A stretch of 64,000 nucleotides of DNA from Bacteriovoracales bacterium. Its GTDB lineage: Bacteria; Bdellovibrionota; Bacteriovoracia; Bacteriovoracales; Bacteriovoracaceae. Where the stretch lies: NCBI GenBank assembly GCA_030149295.1, contig JASBRV010000049.1:1-64000 (forward strand), in the 5' to 3' direction. This document shows, one piece after another, positions 10,532-21,889 of this stretch. Position 1 is the first letter of the stretch. Every line of letters begins with the position of its first letter. The notes under the pieces were generated by a model that saw nothing but the letters and a program-made list of their open reading frames with translations, ran no database searches and was not told the DNA's origin. Position numbers and translations under genes: made by a program.

Positions 10532-10912
10532 ATGGCCAATGAAATCTTTAGACCACCACGTTTACAAGCCCTCGTTCGCGATGAAAACGGAGCTATTGAA
10601 AAAGTCCCAATTACTTCTCTTGGTGTAGGGTGGGCCGTTTTTAATTGGGGATCCTACAAAAAAGGAAATCTGGTAGGTCTCGAAGCCCATGGTAGTAAAA
10701 TTGCTATCGAGCTAGAACTTATTTCTCAAAATGAGGGTGAAGTTAAAGTACAATGGCAAGATATCTCTTTCAATTTCACCATCTTTCACTTATGGCTAAG
10801 AGGTTTAAGTCTTGAGGAAAGGGAAACCTTAATTGCAGATGTTCTTTCCTGGCAAGAGGAAGCCCATATTCGTGCTCTTCAAGAGGACACGCCTCTTAAA
10901 AAAGTTGCCTAA
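10532..10912 (+). CDS. Small soluble protein, possibly PilZ-like
   Basis: 126 aa with no signal peptide and a ribosome binding site (AAGGACA) before the ATG. The strand pattern around ITSLGVGWAVFNWGSYKKGN, followed by LEAHGSKIAIELELI and VKVQW, is reminiscent of a PilZ barrel, but the RxxxR motif that binds c-di-GMP is not evident. It lies divergently from the RND exporter and tail-to-tail with an HD-GYP gene, which makes a link to c-di-GMP attractive but unproven. Its TAA interlocks with the opposing TAG in CTAA. Confidence 0.55.
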   Translation: MANEIFRPPRLQALVRDENGAIEKVPITSLGVGWAVFNWGSYKKGNLVGLEAHGSKIAIELELISQNEGEVKVQWQDISFNFTIFHLWLRGLSLEERETLIADVLSWQEEAHIRALQEDTPLKKVA

Positions 10913-12240
10913 GATTCTTTTTGCAATTGATATTTAGTCACTACAGTTTGCAGGGCGATCATGCATTTCATGAAATTACCTTGAGTGTATTCGCTTAGCA
11001 TATCGTCTAAAATTTCTTGTGGACTTTTCAGGTCGAAATTTTTTTCATAGGCACGGCTGACAAAATCATGGGCGACAATAAAAAGGCAAGATAGAGGAAT
11101 GATTTGGTTGAAGTCTCTTCCGTAGGGAAAGCCTGAGCCATCAGGTCTTTCGTGATGTTGAGCAATGATAGTATCCACTTGTGGATATTCATTGGTAATT
11201 TCTCCCACCAATTCACTTCCTTTAAGGGGATGGTTTTTATACTTCTTTTTTACATCATGAGGAAATTTATCTAGGGCCTTAAGAGAGCGATAGTTAAGTA
11301 CGGCAAGGCGTGGATCGGTAAGACTAACATCGTGAAACAAGCTGGCAAAACCTAGTTTCTCTTTAGAGCGCCTGGTAGTCCACCCAAGTTCATCACACAT
11401 AGCACTTGTTAGGTAGCAAAGGAGGGTGGAATGGTCTGAATTATAGGAGCTACTCTTTTCTAGCAACTCTAAAAGCTTAGAAAGTGTTTTCTTATCTTTT
11501 GCTTCTTGAATGACTTCTTTGACAGACTCATCGGCCGTTTTAACGATATCTGGTGTAATTCCCACTGAAGCGGCCATCTGCTGAATAAATTGAGTTTTTC
11601 TTCGGGATTTTTCTTCGGGAGCTAGGTTTTCATCAATATCATGAAGAGGCTTCTTATAAAGAGAGAGGGCAAATTTATCAAAGTCTTTGGACTCTATATA
11701 AAGATAGTCTTGGCCTTTATCTTGGTATTTCTCTAAAAAGTCCGGTCCATACTCTTCGTCAGGATGGAGCACCTTTACAAATTTTCCGTCACCTAATTTG
11801 AGATAGAGTGAGAAATCGACTTTATGAAAACGCCAAAAGAAAAACATTCTAATGCGGCTAAAGTCTTTGTCTGTAAGGGGAGCTTTAGCAAAAGGTGGAG
11901 TCTTAAAGAGCTGGTGAGAAAATTGTTTGAAGTTGTTTTCTTCATCTTGATGGATGAATGGAAGGCTTTCATGTAGGGTATCTTGCTTTTCACCGGAGTA
12001 GGTAATAAAAGGCACGGTATATCCCTTTTCACGAAAGTGTTGAAAGACTTCCATAAAGGTGCCATTTTTGACATCAAGACTGGCGAGGAATCCTTCAAAA
12101 TAAGGGTCACTTTCAAAAAGCATGATGGCAACTCGCGCACTTGTTACCTCAATAATATCAATTTCCCCCATTCTTTCTTCGAGAATAGCGATCAGAAATT
12201 GCCGGAAGCGGTCATTGTCATCAAGAATCATGAGTTTCAC
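10909..12240 (-). CDS. Receiver-like / HD-GYP domain protein
   Basis: 443 aa if started at the GTG at 12240 (VKLMILDDNDRF). ATG 12258 and TTG 12267 are in frame upstream and cannot be excluded. The N-terminal ~120 residues are receiver-like and keep the acidic DD pair, but the phospho-acceptor strand reads FLASLDVKNG, without an Asp at the usual spacing, so phosphorylation is doubtful. The C-terminal HD-GYP domain keeps the HD of FHDVSL, the HP, and HHERPDGSGFP (GFP instead of GYP). Family members hydrolyse c-di-GMP; the HD is present, so activity is possible. The middle ~180 residues are unassigned. Confidence 0.8.
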   Translation of the reverse strand: MKLMILDDNDRFRQFLIAILEERMGEIDIIEVTSARVAIMLFESDPYFEGFLASLDVKNGTFMEVFQHFREKGYTVPFITYSGEKQDTLHESLPFIHQDEENNFKQFSHQLFKTPPFAKAPLTDKDFSRIRMFFFWRFHKVDFSLYLKLGDGKFVKVLHPDEEYGPDFLEKYQDKGQDYLYIESKDFDKFALSLYKKPLHDIDENLAPEEKSRRKTQFIQQMAASVGITPDIVKTADESVKEVIQEAKDKKTLSKLLELLEKSSSYNSDHSTLLCYLTSAMCDELGWTTRRSKEKLGFASLFHDVSLTDPRLAVLNYRSLKALDKFPHDVKKKYKNHPLKGSELVGEITNEYPQVDTIIAQHHERPDGSGFPYGRDFNQIIPLSCLFIVAHDFVSRAYEKNFDLKSPQEILDDMLSEYTQGNFMKCMIALQTVVTKYQLQKES

Positions 12241-12374
12241 ACTCACTATTGTACACATCTTCAGCAACTTACGGGAGATTTAAGCGTCAATTAGGCCAAC
12301 AGGTGCCTGTAATAGATACACACTCTCTATCTATCGCTCGTGCGATGCGTTAAATTAATCATGGTATTTAATAG

Positions 12375-16491: not shown

Positions 16492-16890
16492 TCACGCACC
16501 AAAGATTTTGCCGATTTTTTCCATGAGGGTGTTGGCGGAAAAGGGGCGAACGACAACATTGTTTACACCTGACTTTACAGAAGTCACGATATTTTGCTGA
16601 TCGGCTTCACTGGTGATCATAAGAAATTTTGTTTTAGAAATTTTATCATTGGCCCTGACTTTTTTAAGGAGATCAAGTCCCGTGATTTTTTCAATATCCC
16701 AAGCGGCGACTATAAGCTCAATAGGTTTCTCTTCACCTAAGGCTTCTTCTATTTTCGCCCAAGCCCGTTCACCATCCTGTGCTTCTGAAACATTTTTAAA
16801 ACCAATATCAACGAGCATTTTTTTTACTGCTTGACGGTTTCCTGATTGAGGATCAGCAAGAAGGATTTTCATACTGGATTTAAGTGCCAT
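16492..16890 (-). CDS. Degenerate CheY-like receiver (pseudo-receiver)
   Basis: 132 aa, a single receiver domain with canonical length and fold pattern. The phospho-acceptor strand reads IVAAWDIEKITG; aligned with the CheY pattern DWnMPxMxG, Ala63 replaces the Asp that is phosphorylated. The conserved Lys is Arg115 (VVVRPF), while Asp13 and Thr93 remain. A phosphorylation-independent adaptor is therefore likely. It is 20 nt downstream of an HD-GYP-like gene, in one operon with a 934-aa protein. Confidence 0.85.
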   Translation of the reverse strand: MALKSSMKILLADPQSGNRQAVKKMLVDIGFKNVSEAQDGERAWAKIEEALGEEKPIELIVAAWDIEKITGLDLLKKVRANDKISKTKFLMITSEADQQNIVTSVKSGVNNVVVRPFSANTLMEKIGKIFGA

Positions 16891-16910
16891 GAACGTTTCT
16901 CCAAAAAAAC

Positions 16911-17960
16911 TTAGGCGGCATTGGCCGAGTCATTATTTGTATCTAGTAAGTATATCAAACTTTCATAAATTGTATCCCCAAACTCTATTTCTAAACCGGG
17001 AGAAAGGGTTTTTTCTTTCATGTTTTTAAGTACGACGCTCATGGCAACAGGACTACCTGTGATTTTTCCTGAGGAATACTCAAGAACATGAGCTGCAGCT
17101 CCTAAAACTAAGGCAAGGGGCTCTATAAATTGCCCTTGTTTGTATTCAGGGTAACCACTTCCATCAGCACGCTCATGATGTTGATAAAGAATTTTATTAC
17201 ATCGCTCACTTATAATGAGTCCTGATTTACGAATAAGGTGTTGAGAAAGTCCGGGGTGTTTTTTGTATTCTCTGCGCTGGCCAGTGGAGAGCTCAAGAAA
17301 AGCTTTTTGTGAATAGAAAATCTCCATTTGAGTATGTCCTAGGTGGGCAAGGAAGGCAGCACAAATTAAATCACCTAAGGCCAGAGGATCCTTCATACCA
17401 CAACCAATCGCAAGATGGGCACTCAAGGCTACCATTCGATTGATATAGGTATCCTGAGTCAGGAGTTTTTCAGACAAATAACTGGCAAGGCTTACTGTGT
17501 GGGAAATAGTAAAAGGAAAGGTCATGGCCTCTTCACGTATTTCTAAAATGAGAGGAAGATAATTATCGCTTTCGACTGCCTTTCCAAGCTCGTCTTTGAA
17601 GTGAAATTTTTTCGTTTCTGCCTTTTTCTCTCTCTTTGCTGCTCGCTCTTTCTGACGAGTAATGAATTCATGTTCGGGAATCTCATTGAGGTCAGGTATA
17701 TCTTCTCTCTTTAATTGATTGGCATGAAGGAAGGTCATTTCTTGCGTTCTACTAACGGCAATTTCTCCACCTTTAGAGACAATAAATTGAAGGAAGTCTA
17801 ATTTCTGACTAGTAAGAGGGGAGTTCGCATGAAGATAGGTAGCGTAGACCTTACTCATAGGATTAAATACATAAAGATGAAAGGGAAAGGTCTTATTGGC
17901 TTTCGCTTTAAGATGCTCAAAATCAATAAAGAAATAGAGGTCAGGGTTCTGTTCAATCAT
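16911..17960 (-). CDS. HD-GYP-like protein lacking the HD pair
   Basis: 349 aa. The N-terminal ~120 residues are unassigned, and an HD-GYP domain covers ~145-335. It keeps His154, HP (235-236), HHERADGSGYP (261-271) and the GYP motif. The catalytic HD of LLHDIGK is replaced by Ala205-His206 (FLAHLGH), so metal binding and c-di-GMP hydrolysis should be altered or lost. Its ATG overlaps the stop of the 934-aa gene (TAATG) and is preceded by AAGGGGG, so the two are translationally coupled. Confidence 0.85.
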   Translation of the reverse strand: MIEQNPDLYFFIDFEHLKAKANKTFPFHLYVFNPMSKVYATYLHANSPLTSQKLDFLQFIVSKGGEIAVSRTQEMTFLHANQLKREDIPDLNEIPEHEFITRQKERAAKREKKAETKKFHFKDELGKAVESDNYLPLILEIREEAMTFPFTISHTVSLASYLSEKLLTQDTYINRMVALSAHLAIGCGMKDPLALGDLICAAFLAHLGHTQMEIFYSQKAFLELSTGQRREYKKHPGLSQHLIRKSGLIISERCNKILYQHHERADGSGYPEYKQGQFIEPLALVLGAAAHVLEYSSGKITGSPVAMSVVLKNMKEKTLSPGLEIEFGDTIYESLIYLLDTNNDSANAA

Positions 17961-20764
17961 TACGCCCCCTTCTTAAATATTTTACTGAAGAAACCACCTT
18001 TCTTTTCCTCTTTAGGTTTGGGTTTTTCACTTGCTTTTCTTTGTTGGGTCGTGCCAACCGTTTGATGGTATTCACTCAAATAAATTCCTCTTGCTACCTC
18101 AAAAAGGGCTTCGAGAGAATCTGCTTTTTCAGGATTAAAGCTGGCACCCGGAATGAATATGGCTAAGCCTAGCAGAGTGACACCTTCATAAAAGGGAAAA
18201 ACAAACTCATTTTCTTTTTGTTGAAAGGTGTGATCAAGCCAGGCCGGCGTTGATTTTTCTAGCCACTGGCCATAGCGAGTCGCTGGGCCTAACTCCCAGG
18301 CTTTTTTAAAGGCATCAACTTCTTTTTCATAAGAGCTAAGATCTTGTTTATAGTCATCTTCAAACTCTTTTCTTTCGGATCTCGTGAGGGCATCTAGCTC
18401 TTCTTGTTTCGGTTTTTCCGGCGGCTTACCAGCACCATTGGCGATAAATCCGTTATAGAGTATTTCTAATTCCTTACCTGGTTTCGTAGTATAAAAGACT
18501 GTGGCACCATCAAATTGAAGCTTTACCTTGTCATTAATAAATTCACAAAGACTTTGAGGCTCGGATTTATCATCGAAATAGAAGTTTAAGACCTCGATGG
18601 CATACTCCATCCCTAAAGAAAGAGGTTCGAAAACCTTTTCTGTTTCCTGTTCTTCTTCTGTCGCTTGAATCTCCTCAAACTCCATATCTTCGAGGTTACC
18701 CTCAGGATTGATCACCTTTTTAGTATAGGTCTTTATCTTGGCGACATTATCAAAGGCGCCATACTGTTTCTTTTTATTGGGAATACCATCTATGTTAATC
18801 CCTTCAAATTCTTTTTTGAGTTGACCGTAGTCGATAGTCTGTTCACCTAGGTCTTGGTTCTCTATAATGAGCTCTTTTTCTTGTCTCGACTCGCTAGGGA
18901 AGTCTTCTTGTGCTTTTTCAGGTTTCTCCCATCCATCACCCCAATCATTATTGTCATGACGTAAACTCTCACGACTGGAATAGTGGGTTTTTATATGATC
19001 GGCCTTTGCATTAGAACGATTGTGCCCACGCTTCTCTTCCTTGTCTTTGGCATTTAACGTCTTCTTTTGTAATTCATCCTCTTCGACTTTAAGTCCACTT
19101 TGCTTTTTTCCAAATTCAGACTCTTCTTCCTGGATACCTTTTTCTCTATTACGATCAAAGTCTTCATCGATGACATTAAGGGAAGCTTTCTTCCTTCTCT
19201 CCCCATAGTCTTCTTCATAGACATTTTCATCTAATAGGGGATCTTTCTCTATATCATCTTCTAGGGCAAGTGCGGCCTTCTTTTTTCTCTTTTCTTCATT
19301 AAGGAGTTCTTGAGCTTCATCCTTATAAATATCTTCATCATCTTCTAGGTCAATTGATTTCTTGGCAGCACCACCACGCAGATAGCCATCAATTTGATCG
19401 GCCTTAGCCTCTCTTTTCTTATCTTCTTTTTCAAAGATTTCTTCATCCTGATGACGATCTCTCTTAGCCTCCTCATGCTCTGCCTCTATGTCGAGCTTGA
19501 TGCCATCCTTTCTTTCATCACTATTAACTTCTTTCTCTTCTGTTTTATCTAAAAAGTCAGATTCTCCATCATCAACGAGTTCAAGTTTTTTCTTCTTTTT
19601 CTTGGCTTCAACTTCTTCGATCTCTTCTTTATCTACATAGCCCTTGTCTTCTTCCTCATCATCTAAGAGTTTAAGTTTCTTTTTTCGCTCTTTTTCAACA
19701 AGGTCTTCTTCCTCTCTTTCAGCTCTTTCTCTATACTCAGCTTCATCTTCAATCTGGAGACCTTTTTTGACATCACCTTTGTAGTGTCCCCCTAGGTCCT
19801 CAGCCTTTTCACCTTTTTGTCTTTCCTCAATTTCTGTGTCCTCGACAATGGGAGCTTGTTTCTTTTTCTTTGCCGCAACCTCTTCTTCAAAAGCGAGCGT
19901 TTTTTTTCTGTCTTGTTTAGCGACATCGACGATAGCCTCTTCATTTATTTGCCTTTTGATTTCATCTAGATCTTCTTCAAGATCAAAAGCGACAGGCCTT
20001 TTCTTTGTCTCTTCTTCCTCTTCTTCGAGTTCTTGTTTTTCTAAAGCGCCTTTGTAGTGACCATCGATCTCTTCTTCACGATAGCCTTTGTTTTTATTTT
20101 CCTCTTCTCCTAAGTCAAGATCTTCTTCTCTTTTTTTAGTTTTATTTTTATAAAAACCAGAGATGGCCTCTTCTTTGTATTTATTCTTTTTTGGCTTTGA
20201 GTAATCATCAAGAACATTCTCTTCTACTTCTTTTTTTGTTTTCTTTTCAGTTGAAGCTTCTTCCTCGTCAAGAATGACACCTTTTTCAGCACGAAGCTTT
20301 TGTTGGCCATCACTTTCTTGTTCATTGTCACCCTGACCAAACTTGGTGTTCATCTCCTGGTCTTCATCTTTTTTCGTAGAAATTGATCTAAGCTGGAGGC
20401 GAACTTTGTAGAGAAGAGTTTTTGGATTAACTGGTTCAACCACACATTCAGTAAGGCCTACTTTCATAAATTTATCTAGGGTCTTTCGAGGAATGTTTTT
20501 GGGTGATAAAAGAATCGTTTTTGATTGAAGTTTTTTAATAGTTCTTTTGTTTTGCTGAAGCATCATCGCGCATTTTTTAGGACTAGAGGTTAAAATGAGA
20601 CCTTGTCCAATAGTTGGGATCAGCTGTTGGGCTTCCTCAAGAGCATCGATTTCGAAAACTTCGATTCCTTCGGCTTCAGCATTTTCCTCTACCACTTCCT
20701 TTAGCTTTTTAAGGGTTTCTGATAGGGGTTCGAGAAATATTAGCGGTTTTGTTCCTAGACTCAT
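17960..20764 (-). CDS. 934-aa charged repeat protein with receiver-like and GAF-like ends
   Basis: Residues ~1-130 follow a receiver fold, ending VGLTECVVEPVNPKTLLYKV where a receiver has its KPf motif, but without the acidic and phospho-acceptor Asp. Residues ~135-640 are a very Glu/Lys/Asp-rich disordered or coiled region. In it a short motif recurs about five times: AISGFYKN, EIDGHYKG, DLGGHYKG, QIDGYLRG, HIKTHYSS. Residues ~735-905 look like a GAF-type sensor domain (FVFPFYEGVTLLGLAIFIPG), assigned by pattern only. There are no TM segments. It heads an operon with a degenerate HD-GYP protein and a pseudo-receiver. Function unknown; a cytoplasmic scaffold is my inference. Confidence 0.7.
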   Translation of the reverse strand: MSLGTKPLIFLEPLSETLKKLKEVVEENAEAEGIEVFEIDALEEAQQLIPTIGQGLILTSSPKKCAMMLQQNKRTIKKLQSKTILLSPKNIPRKTLDKFMKVGLTECVVEPVNPKTLLYKVRLQLRSISTKKDEDQEMNTKFGQGDNEQESDGQQKLRAEKGVILDEEEASTEKKTKKEVEENVLDDYSKPKKNKYKEEAISGFYKNKTKKREEDLDLGEEENKNKGYREEEIDGHYKGALEKQELEEEEEETKKRPVAFDLEEDLDEIKRQINEEAIVDVAKQDRKKTLAFEEEVAAKKKKQAPIVEDTEIEERQKGEKAEDLGGHYKGDVKKGLQIEDEAEYRERAEREEEDLVEKERKKKLKLLDDEEEDKGYVDKEEIEEVEAKKKKKKLELVDDGESDFLDKTEEKEVNSDERKDGIKLDIEAEHEEAKRDRHQDEEIFEKEDKKREAKADQIDGYLRGGAAKKSIDLEDDEDIYKDEAQELLNEEKRKKKAALALEDDIEKDPLLDENVYEEDYGERRKKASLNVIDEDFDRNREKGIQEEESEFGKKQSGLKVEEDELQKKTLNAKDKEEKRGHNRSNAKADHIKTHYSSRESLRHDNNDWGDGWEKPEKAQEDFPSESRQEKELIIENQDLGEQTIDYGQLKKEFEGINIDGIPNKKKQYGAFDNVAKIKTYTKKVINPEGNLEDMEFEEIQATEEEQETEKVFEPLSLGMEYAIEVLNFYFDDKSEPQSLCEFINDKVKLQFDGATVFYTTKPGKELEILYNGFIANGAGKPPEKPKQEELDALTRSERKEFEDDYKQDLSSYEKEVDAFKKAWELGPATRYGQWLEKSTPAWLDHTFQQKENEFVFPFYEGVTLLGLAIFIPGASFNPEKADSLEALFEVARGIYLSEYHQTVGTTQQRKASEKPKPKEEKKGGFFSKIFKKGA

Positions 20765-20901
20765 AACTTCATTATTTATCGGTATTTCTCTTCTATTTTT
20801 TGAAAAAAATTACGTAAAAAAAGAAAGCAATAATAAAGAGGGAATCTTGAGCCCGAGTGAACTGGTCGGTTAAAAAAGTGAAAATCGCGGAAAATTTTTC
20901 T

Positions 20902-20928: not shown

Positions 20929-21055
20929 AGACATGACTGCCTTGTGGTAGTCGGAAATTTTTAAACCATAGTTTCAGAGAGCAGTATGCTCATTTTTCCT
21001 CACGGTTAGGGATCAAGCACCAAGGATGCGGCGCCAAGAAGACAAGGAGGATCTA

Positions 21056-21889
21056 ATGGGTTTACGTATTAACACCAACACGACGTCTCTCGCCGCCCAG
21101 CGAACTCTAGGCGTTAACAATGAAGCACAAGCTAAAACACTCGGTAAGTTGTCATCAGGGACACGTATCGTGCGTTCAGCTGACGATGCTGCAGGTCTAG
21201 CGATCAGTGAAAAATTGAAAGCAACGATCCGTGGACAGTCGCAAGCTGAAAGAAACGCGAACGATGGTATCTCTATGATTCAAACGGCTGAAGGTGGTCT
21301 TAGCGAAATCGGCAACATTCTTATCCGTATGAGAGAACTCTCAGTTCAAGCTGCCTCGGACACTGTAGGGGACTCTGAGAGATCATTTACTGATCTTGAG
21401 TATCAAAACCTCAAACAGGAAATTGAGCGTATCTCTCAGGTAACTGAATTCAACGGTAAGAAACTTCTTAACGGTTCTGGGGAGACATATGATTTCCAGA
21501 TCGGTATTAACAATGACGATTTTCAAGACCGTATTAAATTTAACGCATCAATGCTTAACAGCTCTCTTGAGAATCTTGGAGTTGGTGAGCTTGCGGTCAC
21601 TTCAAAAGAAGAGTCGCAAAATGCTCTTGCAGCACTTGATTCTGCTATTCAGCAAGTTTCAGGACAAAGAGCCGAGCTAGGAGCGAAGCAAAATAGACTT
21701 CAGTCCACAGTTCAAAACCTGCAAGTAAGTAATGAGAACTTGAGTGCTGCGAATTCACGAATTCGTGACACTGACTACGCTGCTGAAACAGCTAAGAATG
21801 CTAAACTTAACATTCTTAATGCCGCTGGTACTTCAGTTCTTGCGCAGTCAAATGCTCAAGGTCAAAATGCTCTTCAGCTCATTGGTTAA
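21056..21889 (+). CDS. fliC: Flagellin
   Basis: 277 aa starting MGLRINTNTTSLAAQRTLG, with a perfect ribosome binding site (AAGGAGG) just upstream; an in-frame ATG at 21026 is too early. The conserved D0/D1 N-terminus includes LSSGTRIVRSADDAAGLAIS. The C-terminus includes SRIRDTDYAAETAK and ends NALQLIG. The variable D2/D3 region is nearly absent, as in other short flagellins. It is monocistronic, with a sigma-28-like promoter upstream and a strong terminator downstream. It forms the flagellar filament after export by the type III apparatus. Confidence 0.97.
   Translation: MGLRINTNTTSLAAQRTLGVNNEAQAKTLGKLSSGTRIVRSADDAAGLAISEKLKATIRGQSQAERNANDGISMIQTAEGGLSEIGNILIRMRELSVQAASDTVGDSERSFTDLEYQNLKQEIERISQVTEFNGKKLLNGSGETYDFQIGINNDDFQDRIKFNASMLNSSLENLGVGELAVTSKEESQNALAALDSAIQQVSGQRAELGAKQNRLQSTVQNLQVSNENLSAANSRIRDTDYAAETAKNAKLNILNAAGTSVLAQSNAQGQNALQLIG

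Follow-up and report, generated by a model that had tools for sequence, protein, structure and literature searches.

The closest described counterparts of the locus analysed here belong to two kinds of protein, pseudo-receivers and inactive HD-GYP proteins, and the operon is a variant of these. Among HD-GYP proteins, PmGH of Persephonella marina (PDB 4MCW) is active; alanine at H189, H221, D222 or K225 essentially abolished this activity, and c-di-GMP was bound to a subunit in which only the G-site iron was occupied (PMC4159591). Bd1817 of Bdellovibrio bacteriovorus (PDB 3TM8) is an unconventional, catalytically inactive HD-GYP protein that keeps the HD dyad and a di-iron site and has lost the Tyr of the GYP motif (PMC4159591). 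FrzS of Myxococcus combines a receiver fold without the Asp with a role in motility (PMC12632262, PMC1974792), and the control of bacterial pseudo-receivers is an acknowledged open question (PMC12632262). Chemotaxis CheY/CheX output modules provide a further point of comparison.

The operon lies in the window, i.e. the whole stretch of 64,000 nucleotides that was analysed, and encodes a large protein termed Big, an HD-GYP-like protein termed the HD protein and a CheY-like protein (operon CheY). No paper describing it was found in the open-access literature searched. The features are as follows.

16492-20764, minus strand: operon of Big, HD protein and CheY-like protein (ORF list)
17960-20764, minus strand: Big, 934 aa, with N-terminal predicted pseudo-receiver, long Glu/Lys-rich linker, GEQTIDY motif and C-terminal alpha/beta domain (ORF, orthologues, structure)
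20375-20755, minus strand: predicted pseudo-receiver domain of Big, aa 4-130, without phospho-Asp and with E110 for the Lys (predicted fold, KdpE receiver match)
18827-18847, minus strand: GEQTIDY motif, aa 640-646, conserved inside an otherwise variable linker (orthologue comparison)
18050-18637, minus strand: C-terminal alpha/beta domain of Big, ~aa 710-905 (predicted structure)
16911-17960, minus strand: HD protein, 349 aa, predicted pseudo-HD-GYP with a Bd1817-like N-terminal domain (Pfam, profile and fold matches)
17343-17348, minus strand: Ala205-His206 codons replacing the HD dyad (DNA, alignment)
17148-17180, minus strand: retained HHERxDGSGYP segment, aa 261-271, in the window HHERADGSGYP (alignment)
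16492-16890, minus strand: degenerate CheY paralogue, 132 aa, with P14, A63 and R115 (ORF, NCBIfam, alignment, tree)
16702-16704, minus strand: Ala63 codon replacing the phospho-Asp (DNA, alignment)
16546-16548, minus strand: Arg115 codon replacing the Lys (DNA, alignment)
20776-20783, minus strand: ACCGATAA, a -10 element of FliA (sigma-28) type, 11 nt upstream of the start codon of Big (promoter scan)
21026-21889, plus strand: divergent flagellin gene, conserved neighbour of Big (ORF, relatives' regions)

The three minus-strand frames are intact, as described in the initial annotation, which had also assigned TAATG coupling and good ribosome binding sites to the operon. The coupling is present at the Big/HD junction only, the HD and CheY frames being separated by 20 nt; a GGAG lies in this gap, and no obvious Shine-Dalgarno sequence precedes Big. 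Unlike FrzS and pseudo-receivers generally, two predicted pseudo-receivers and a predicted pseudo-HD-GYP protein are united here in one operon, and one of them, operon CheY, derives from a canonical chemotaxis CheY. The ancestral order CheY-Hpt-CheX directly after the HD gene is shared with CheY/CheX output modules, whereas the operon of the window's lineage lacks Hpt and CheX and its CheY lacks the phospho-Asp (Ala63 in the window).

The Big and HD proteins

Big as a whole matched no Pfam family. Its residues 4-130 are predicted to adopt a (beta-alpha)5 receiver fold (pLDDT ~90) that resembles solved receivers at Z ~14 (VIA, Z 14.6), and the best Foldseek match is the KdpE receiver (E=3e-4); sequence-profile comparison alone gives weak support for receiver identity. 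No Asp is aligned at the acceptor place, and a conserved E110 stands where receivers have Lys, so the model bears out a receiver-like domain without phospho-acceptor, as first proposed for the 934-aa protein. The matches listed in the structure search with Big all fell on this domain. The C-terminal domain is GAF-like by secondary-structure order only and found no family match in Pfam or PDB sequence searches. If a pseudo-receiver is defined as a receiver fold without the phosphotransfer residues, the modelled N-terminus of Big and, judged by its sequence, operon CheY would both qualify.

The HD protein matches Pfam HD_5 (1e-11), and its predicted structure (pLDDT 90.5) is closest to c-di-GMP-bound DvhD (9rbz, Z 16.2), followed by Bd1817 (Z 15.4) and PmGH (Z 14.1). 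With Bd1817 it shares the two-domain arrangement: the sequences match over profile positions 4-286 (E=3e-12) and the folds over residues 8-341 (239 residues), with an rmsd of 20.8, so that domain placement differs. Like Bd1817, the HD protein is predicted to be inactive, yet the residues lost are the reverse, since here HD is lost and GYP kept. Fold, GYP motif and three His metal ligands are common to it and PmGH; in contrast to PmGH, five of the eight metal ligands and Lys225 are missing. Residues were mapped on PmGH by profile alignment. Lost positions are H189 (Y172 in the window), H221 (A205), D222 (H206), K225 (H209), D305 (A290) and D308 (L293), and the E185 position is not conserved; H250 (H235), H276 (H261), H277 (H262), Y285 (Y270) and I294 (I279) are kept. 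R314 corresponds to K299, which remains basic, and the guanine-contact K317 to G302. The Ala205-His206 replacement reported initially was thus confirmed in the DNA, and the losses at H189, K225 and D305 go beyond it.

Among 56 family orthologues, from which an HD frame at L087 7677-8810 was excluded for the residue counts, none carries the HD dyad; the positions read SH (13), AH (12), KD (8), HH (5), CH (4), YH (4) and others. Close to the end of its contig, the excluded frame continues as ABC-transporter-like sequence and is probably an assembly artefact. The equivalents of H250, H276 and H277 are kept in 53-54/56 orthologues, G and P of the GYP pocket in all 56 and Y or F in 53, the I294 equivalent in 48 and a basic residue at position 299 in 44. 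Hence, fold and GYP motif of an HD-GYP phosphodiesterase are present, and the HD dyad and the full set of eight ligands are not. These patterns indicate that the HD protein is a conserved pseudo-enzyme; hydrolysis by it is improbable, as the initial annotation had supposed. The dyad is intact in paralogous HD proteins encoded by the same genome, and the loss is therefore not a genome-wide habit. An intact control is found at 10909-12267 (minus strand), where a 452-aa protein has a receiver-like N-terminus and an HD-GYP domain with HD kept (LFHDVSL) and HHERPDGSGFP.

Full-length orthologues of the HD protein are confined to the window's family in a 240-genome phylum sample, and weaker matches to the Big N-terminus profile occur in other families. 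In five genomes (G187, G190, G220, G244 and G267), an HD-GYP gene has a Big-like gene as its neighbour or no more than ~3 kb away, in G187 in the order Big-HD as in the window and with a 4-nt overlap; a sixth deep HD-GYP gene (G212) is located at a contig end, where any Big would be out of view. All six deep proteins keep HD (HDIG[LMV]), with Lys225 replaced. The comparison of orthologues proposed at the outset therefore upholds dyad loss within the family and not in these deeper homologues. Since the latter, mostly near a Big-like gene, keep HD, the Big-HD pair probably predates the family, the dyad having disappeared in the line leading to it. A 465-487 aa protein of unknown kind adjoins the pair elsewhere (L213 8741-10204, L214 11498-12895, L215 2799-4199, L216 7796-9241); it matched none of the genes in the regions fetched from the window's family.

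The idea put forward initially, binding of c-di-GMP without hydrolysis, is a special case of the preferred reading given below, and such binding is possible. In its full form, the HD protein would be a receptor for c-di-GMP (or cGAMP) with a retained GYP pocket and perhaps a single metal, signalling to the flagellum via Big; we consider this a plausible, still tentative proposal. Retention of the GYP segment, of the I294 equivalent and of a basic residue where PmGH has R314 is in line with it, as are the three conserved His ligands, the binding of c-di-GMP by PmGH with one iron (PMC4159591), the c-di-GMP-bound state of the closest fold and the two GGDEF proteins encoded in the window's genome. 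Against this, the K317 equivalent is Gly, the Tyr285 equivalent is Phe in 19/56 orthologues, the metal ligands H189, H221, D222 and D305 are lost, and in Bd1817, the closest relative solved over its full length, the site is closed and activity is absent (PMC4159591).

Operon CheY and its second copy

Operon CheY matches Response_reg in Pfam (8e-16), and the NCBIfam CheY profile is its best match at 94 bits, below the 189-bit cut-off; it shows 51% identity to a canonical operon CheY. Homology to chemotaxis CheY is accompanied by absence of the acidic pair, the phospho-Asp and the Lys. Ala63 and Arg115, both named in the initial annotation, were verified in the DNA, and the second acidic residue, which had escaped notice, is also lost (D13-P14). 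A sequencing error at A63 was ruled out, as the same-genus genome G035 shares it; also rejected was the notion that all orthologous CheYs lack the Asp, most being canonical. Phosphorylation independence, initially suggested for the complex, may accordingly be claimed for the window's lineage and not for the operon in general, where most CheYs keep the phospho-Asp.

A canonical CheY with 64-72% identity is encoded elsewhere in the window's genome and in G001, G030, G031, G033, G034, G035, G053, G056 and G073, while no second CheY above 60% identity was found in the 24/24 canonical-operon genomes searched or in G042 and G046. CheX lies near the second copy in 6/7 regions read, G056 having an Hpt gene instead, and CheA, CheW, MCP, CheB and CheR follow it in the window's genome, G001 and G053. 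The acceptor of the degenerate operon CheY is Ala in G000 and G035 and Glu in G001, G034, G053, G112 and G113; G030, G031, G056 and G073 keep the Asp and show other losses. A long branch with support of 100/99 sets the degenerate copies apart from canonical CheYs; G056 is placed adjacent to this branch. Because acceptor states are scattered on the HD-protein tree, the acceptor was probably lost more than once after duplication. By sequence, dyad loss in the HD protein is old and the CheY loss lineage-specific, neither of which the initial annotation had recognised.

That operon CheY is a decaying duplicate without a role, so that only Big and the HD protein matter, seems unlikely. It has evolved faster than the che-cluster copy (80% versus 97% identity between G000 and G035), its phospho-Asp position varies between A, D and E, and several other genera have no such gene at the operon. 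However, the frame is intact in 11/11 loci of the degenerate lineage, these proteins have substitutions in common (loss of the second acidic residue, Val/Ile for the K-3 aromatic), and dN/dS is ~0.08-0.18; for G000 versus G035, dN is 0.146 and dS 1.9, near saturation, making the ratio of 0.076 a rough one. These values point to continuing purifying selection and support a CheY that would be functional though not phosphorylated.

Neighbourhood and promoters

The HD protein was found over most of its length in ~55/129 genomes in a search of the window's family. Big and HD genes stand side by side in most of 57 fetched regions plus the window, and Big-HD(-CheY) synteny extends over ~50 genomes of the family. 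This synteny, together with the dN/dS of operon CheY, rules out random decay of the operon, judged unlikely from the start. In the same regions, a flagellin gene is present in 37 and a metallophosphatase gene in 38. In ~30 relatives, the operon has a canonical CheY and, after it, genes for an Hpt protein (PF01627) and for CheX (PF13690). Some genomes (G040, G037, G038, G047, G077) keep Big-HD without a neighbouring CheY, and the partnership is therefore not obligatory; likewise, operon CheY is lost or degraded in g13, g14 and further genera, not all of which possess a close second copy, so that Big-HD does not need it.

FliA homologues are encoded in the window's genome. In Bdellovibrio, attack-phase genes other than those for flagella are also under FliA control (PMC9140294). 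Upstream regions were scanned for the FliA (sigma-28) pattern TAAAGTTT-N10-12-GCCGATAA. FliA-like elements precede Big in many relatives, e.g. TAAACTTT-N11-GACGATAA; a score of at least 12/16 was reached before 41% of Big genes (4.5% of shuffles), although the window's own -35 is poor, and before 32% of flagellin genes (3% of shuffles). Six of seven other gene groups scored 0-10%; the M48 peptidase group scored 23%, and the scan is hence not perfectly specific. M48-peptidase-like genes near the operon (cluster 6, e.g. L035 10843-11364) have CGATAA close upstream in 11/31 loci and are possibly further FliA-type genes. The sigma-28-like -10 ends ~6-11 nt before the Big start in many relatives (window 20764-20783, minus strand), so near that the Big mRNA may be leaderless. 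FliM occurs in 117/129 genomes; complete genomes without it (G064, G065, G067, G068) also lack the HD protein, which is absent from some flagellated ones too. The flagellar link suggested initially is backed by the divergent flagellin gene, the CheX/Hpt neighbours and the FliA-like promoters.

A candidate motility module

We favour, with a probability of roughly 0.6, a reading in which the operon serves Bacteriovoracaceae-type bacteria as a flagellar/chemotaxis output module built on a non-hydrolysing Big-HD core. Here, Big would act as a scaffold in which a long charged linker connects a terminal pseudo-receiver to a small domain at the opposite end. The HD protein, which has kept the HD-GYP fold and GYP pocket but whose catalytic metal centre cannot form, would serve as a ligand sensor or protein-binding partner rather than an enzyme. 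The ancestral operon would also have held the main CheY of the cell together with an Hpt protein and CheX, the phosphatase for CheY-P, and joint action of Big-HD and CheY on flagellar output is therefore probable. In the window's lineage, canonical CheY and CheX are encoded in the main chemotaxis cluster, and the copy left behind would have become a pseudo-receiver that selection maintains as a partner independent of phosphorylation. The second CheY, the gene order, the residue losses, the conservation and the promoter-like elements are observed, whereas complex formation, ligand binding and action on the flagellum are the steps envisaged. The weakest alternative, a re-tooled HD protein that would exert another activity at a new metal site rich in His (His206, His235, His261, His262 and perhaps His291), is improbable: His at 206 (42/56) and 291 (43/56) exceeds neutral-decay expectation, but 14 divergent members that retain the pair have Asp, Arg or Asn at 206, and 291 is adjacent to the D305 ligand position instead of coinciding with it (D290-H291 in divergent members).

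A broader and more speculative picture would place in Bdellovibrionota a conserved motility pair of pseudo-receiver scaffold and HD-GYP protein that, as part of the FliA regulon, links the state of second messengers to flagellar output under CheY control. In several families its HD dyad is intact; in Bacteriovoracaceae the HD-GYP protein would be a pseudo-enzyme that senses a ligand. The operon offers a natural series, from canonical CheY to Glu, Asp or Ala pseudo-CheY and, in the HD protein, from a complete dyad to a fixed pseudo-enzyme state, whose real intermediates make the steps and order of pseudo-receiver evolution testable. It is also a candidate link of second messengers to flagellar output in predatory bacteria. 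The Bacteriovoracaceae-like host is a relative of such bacteria, and the loss of active-site residues from proteins that related genomes nevertheless conserve, encoded beside the flagellin gene, suggests a motility module that works by binding, not by enzyme chemistry.
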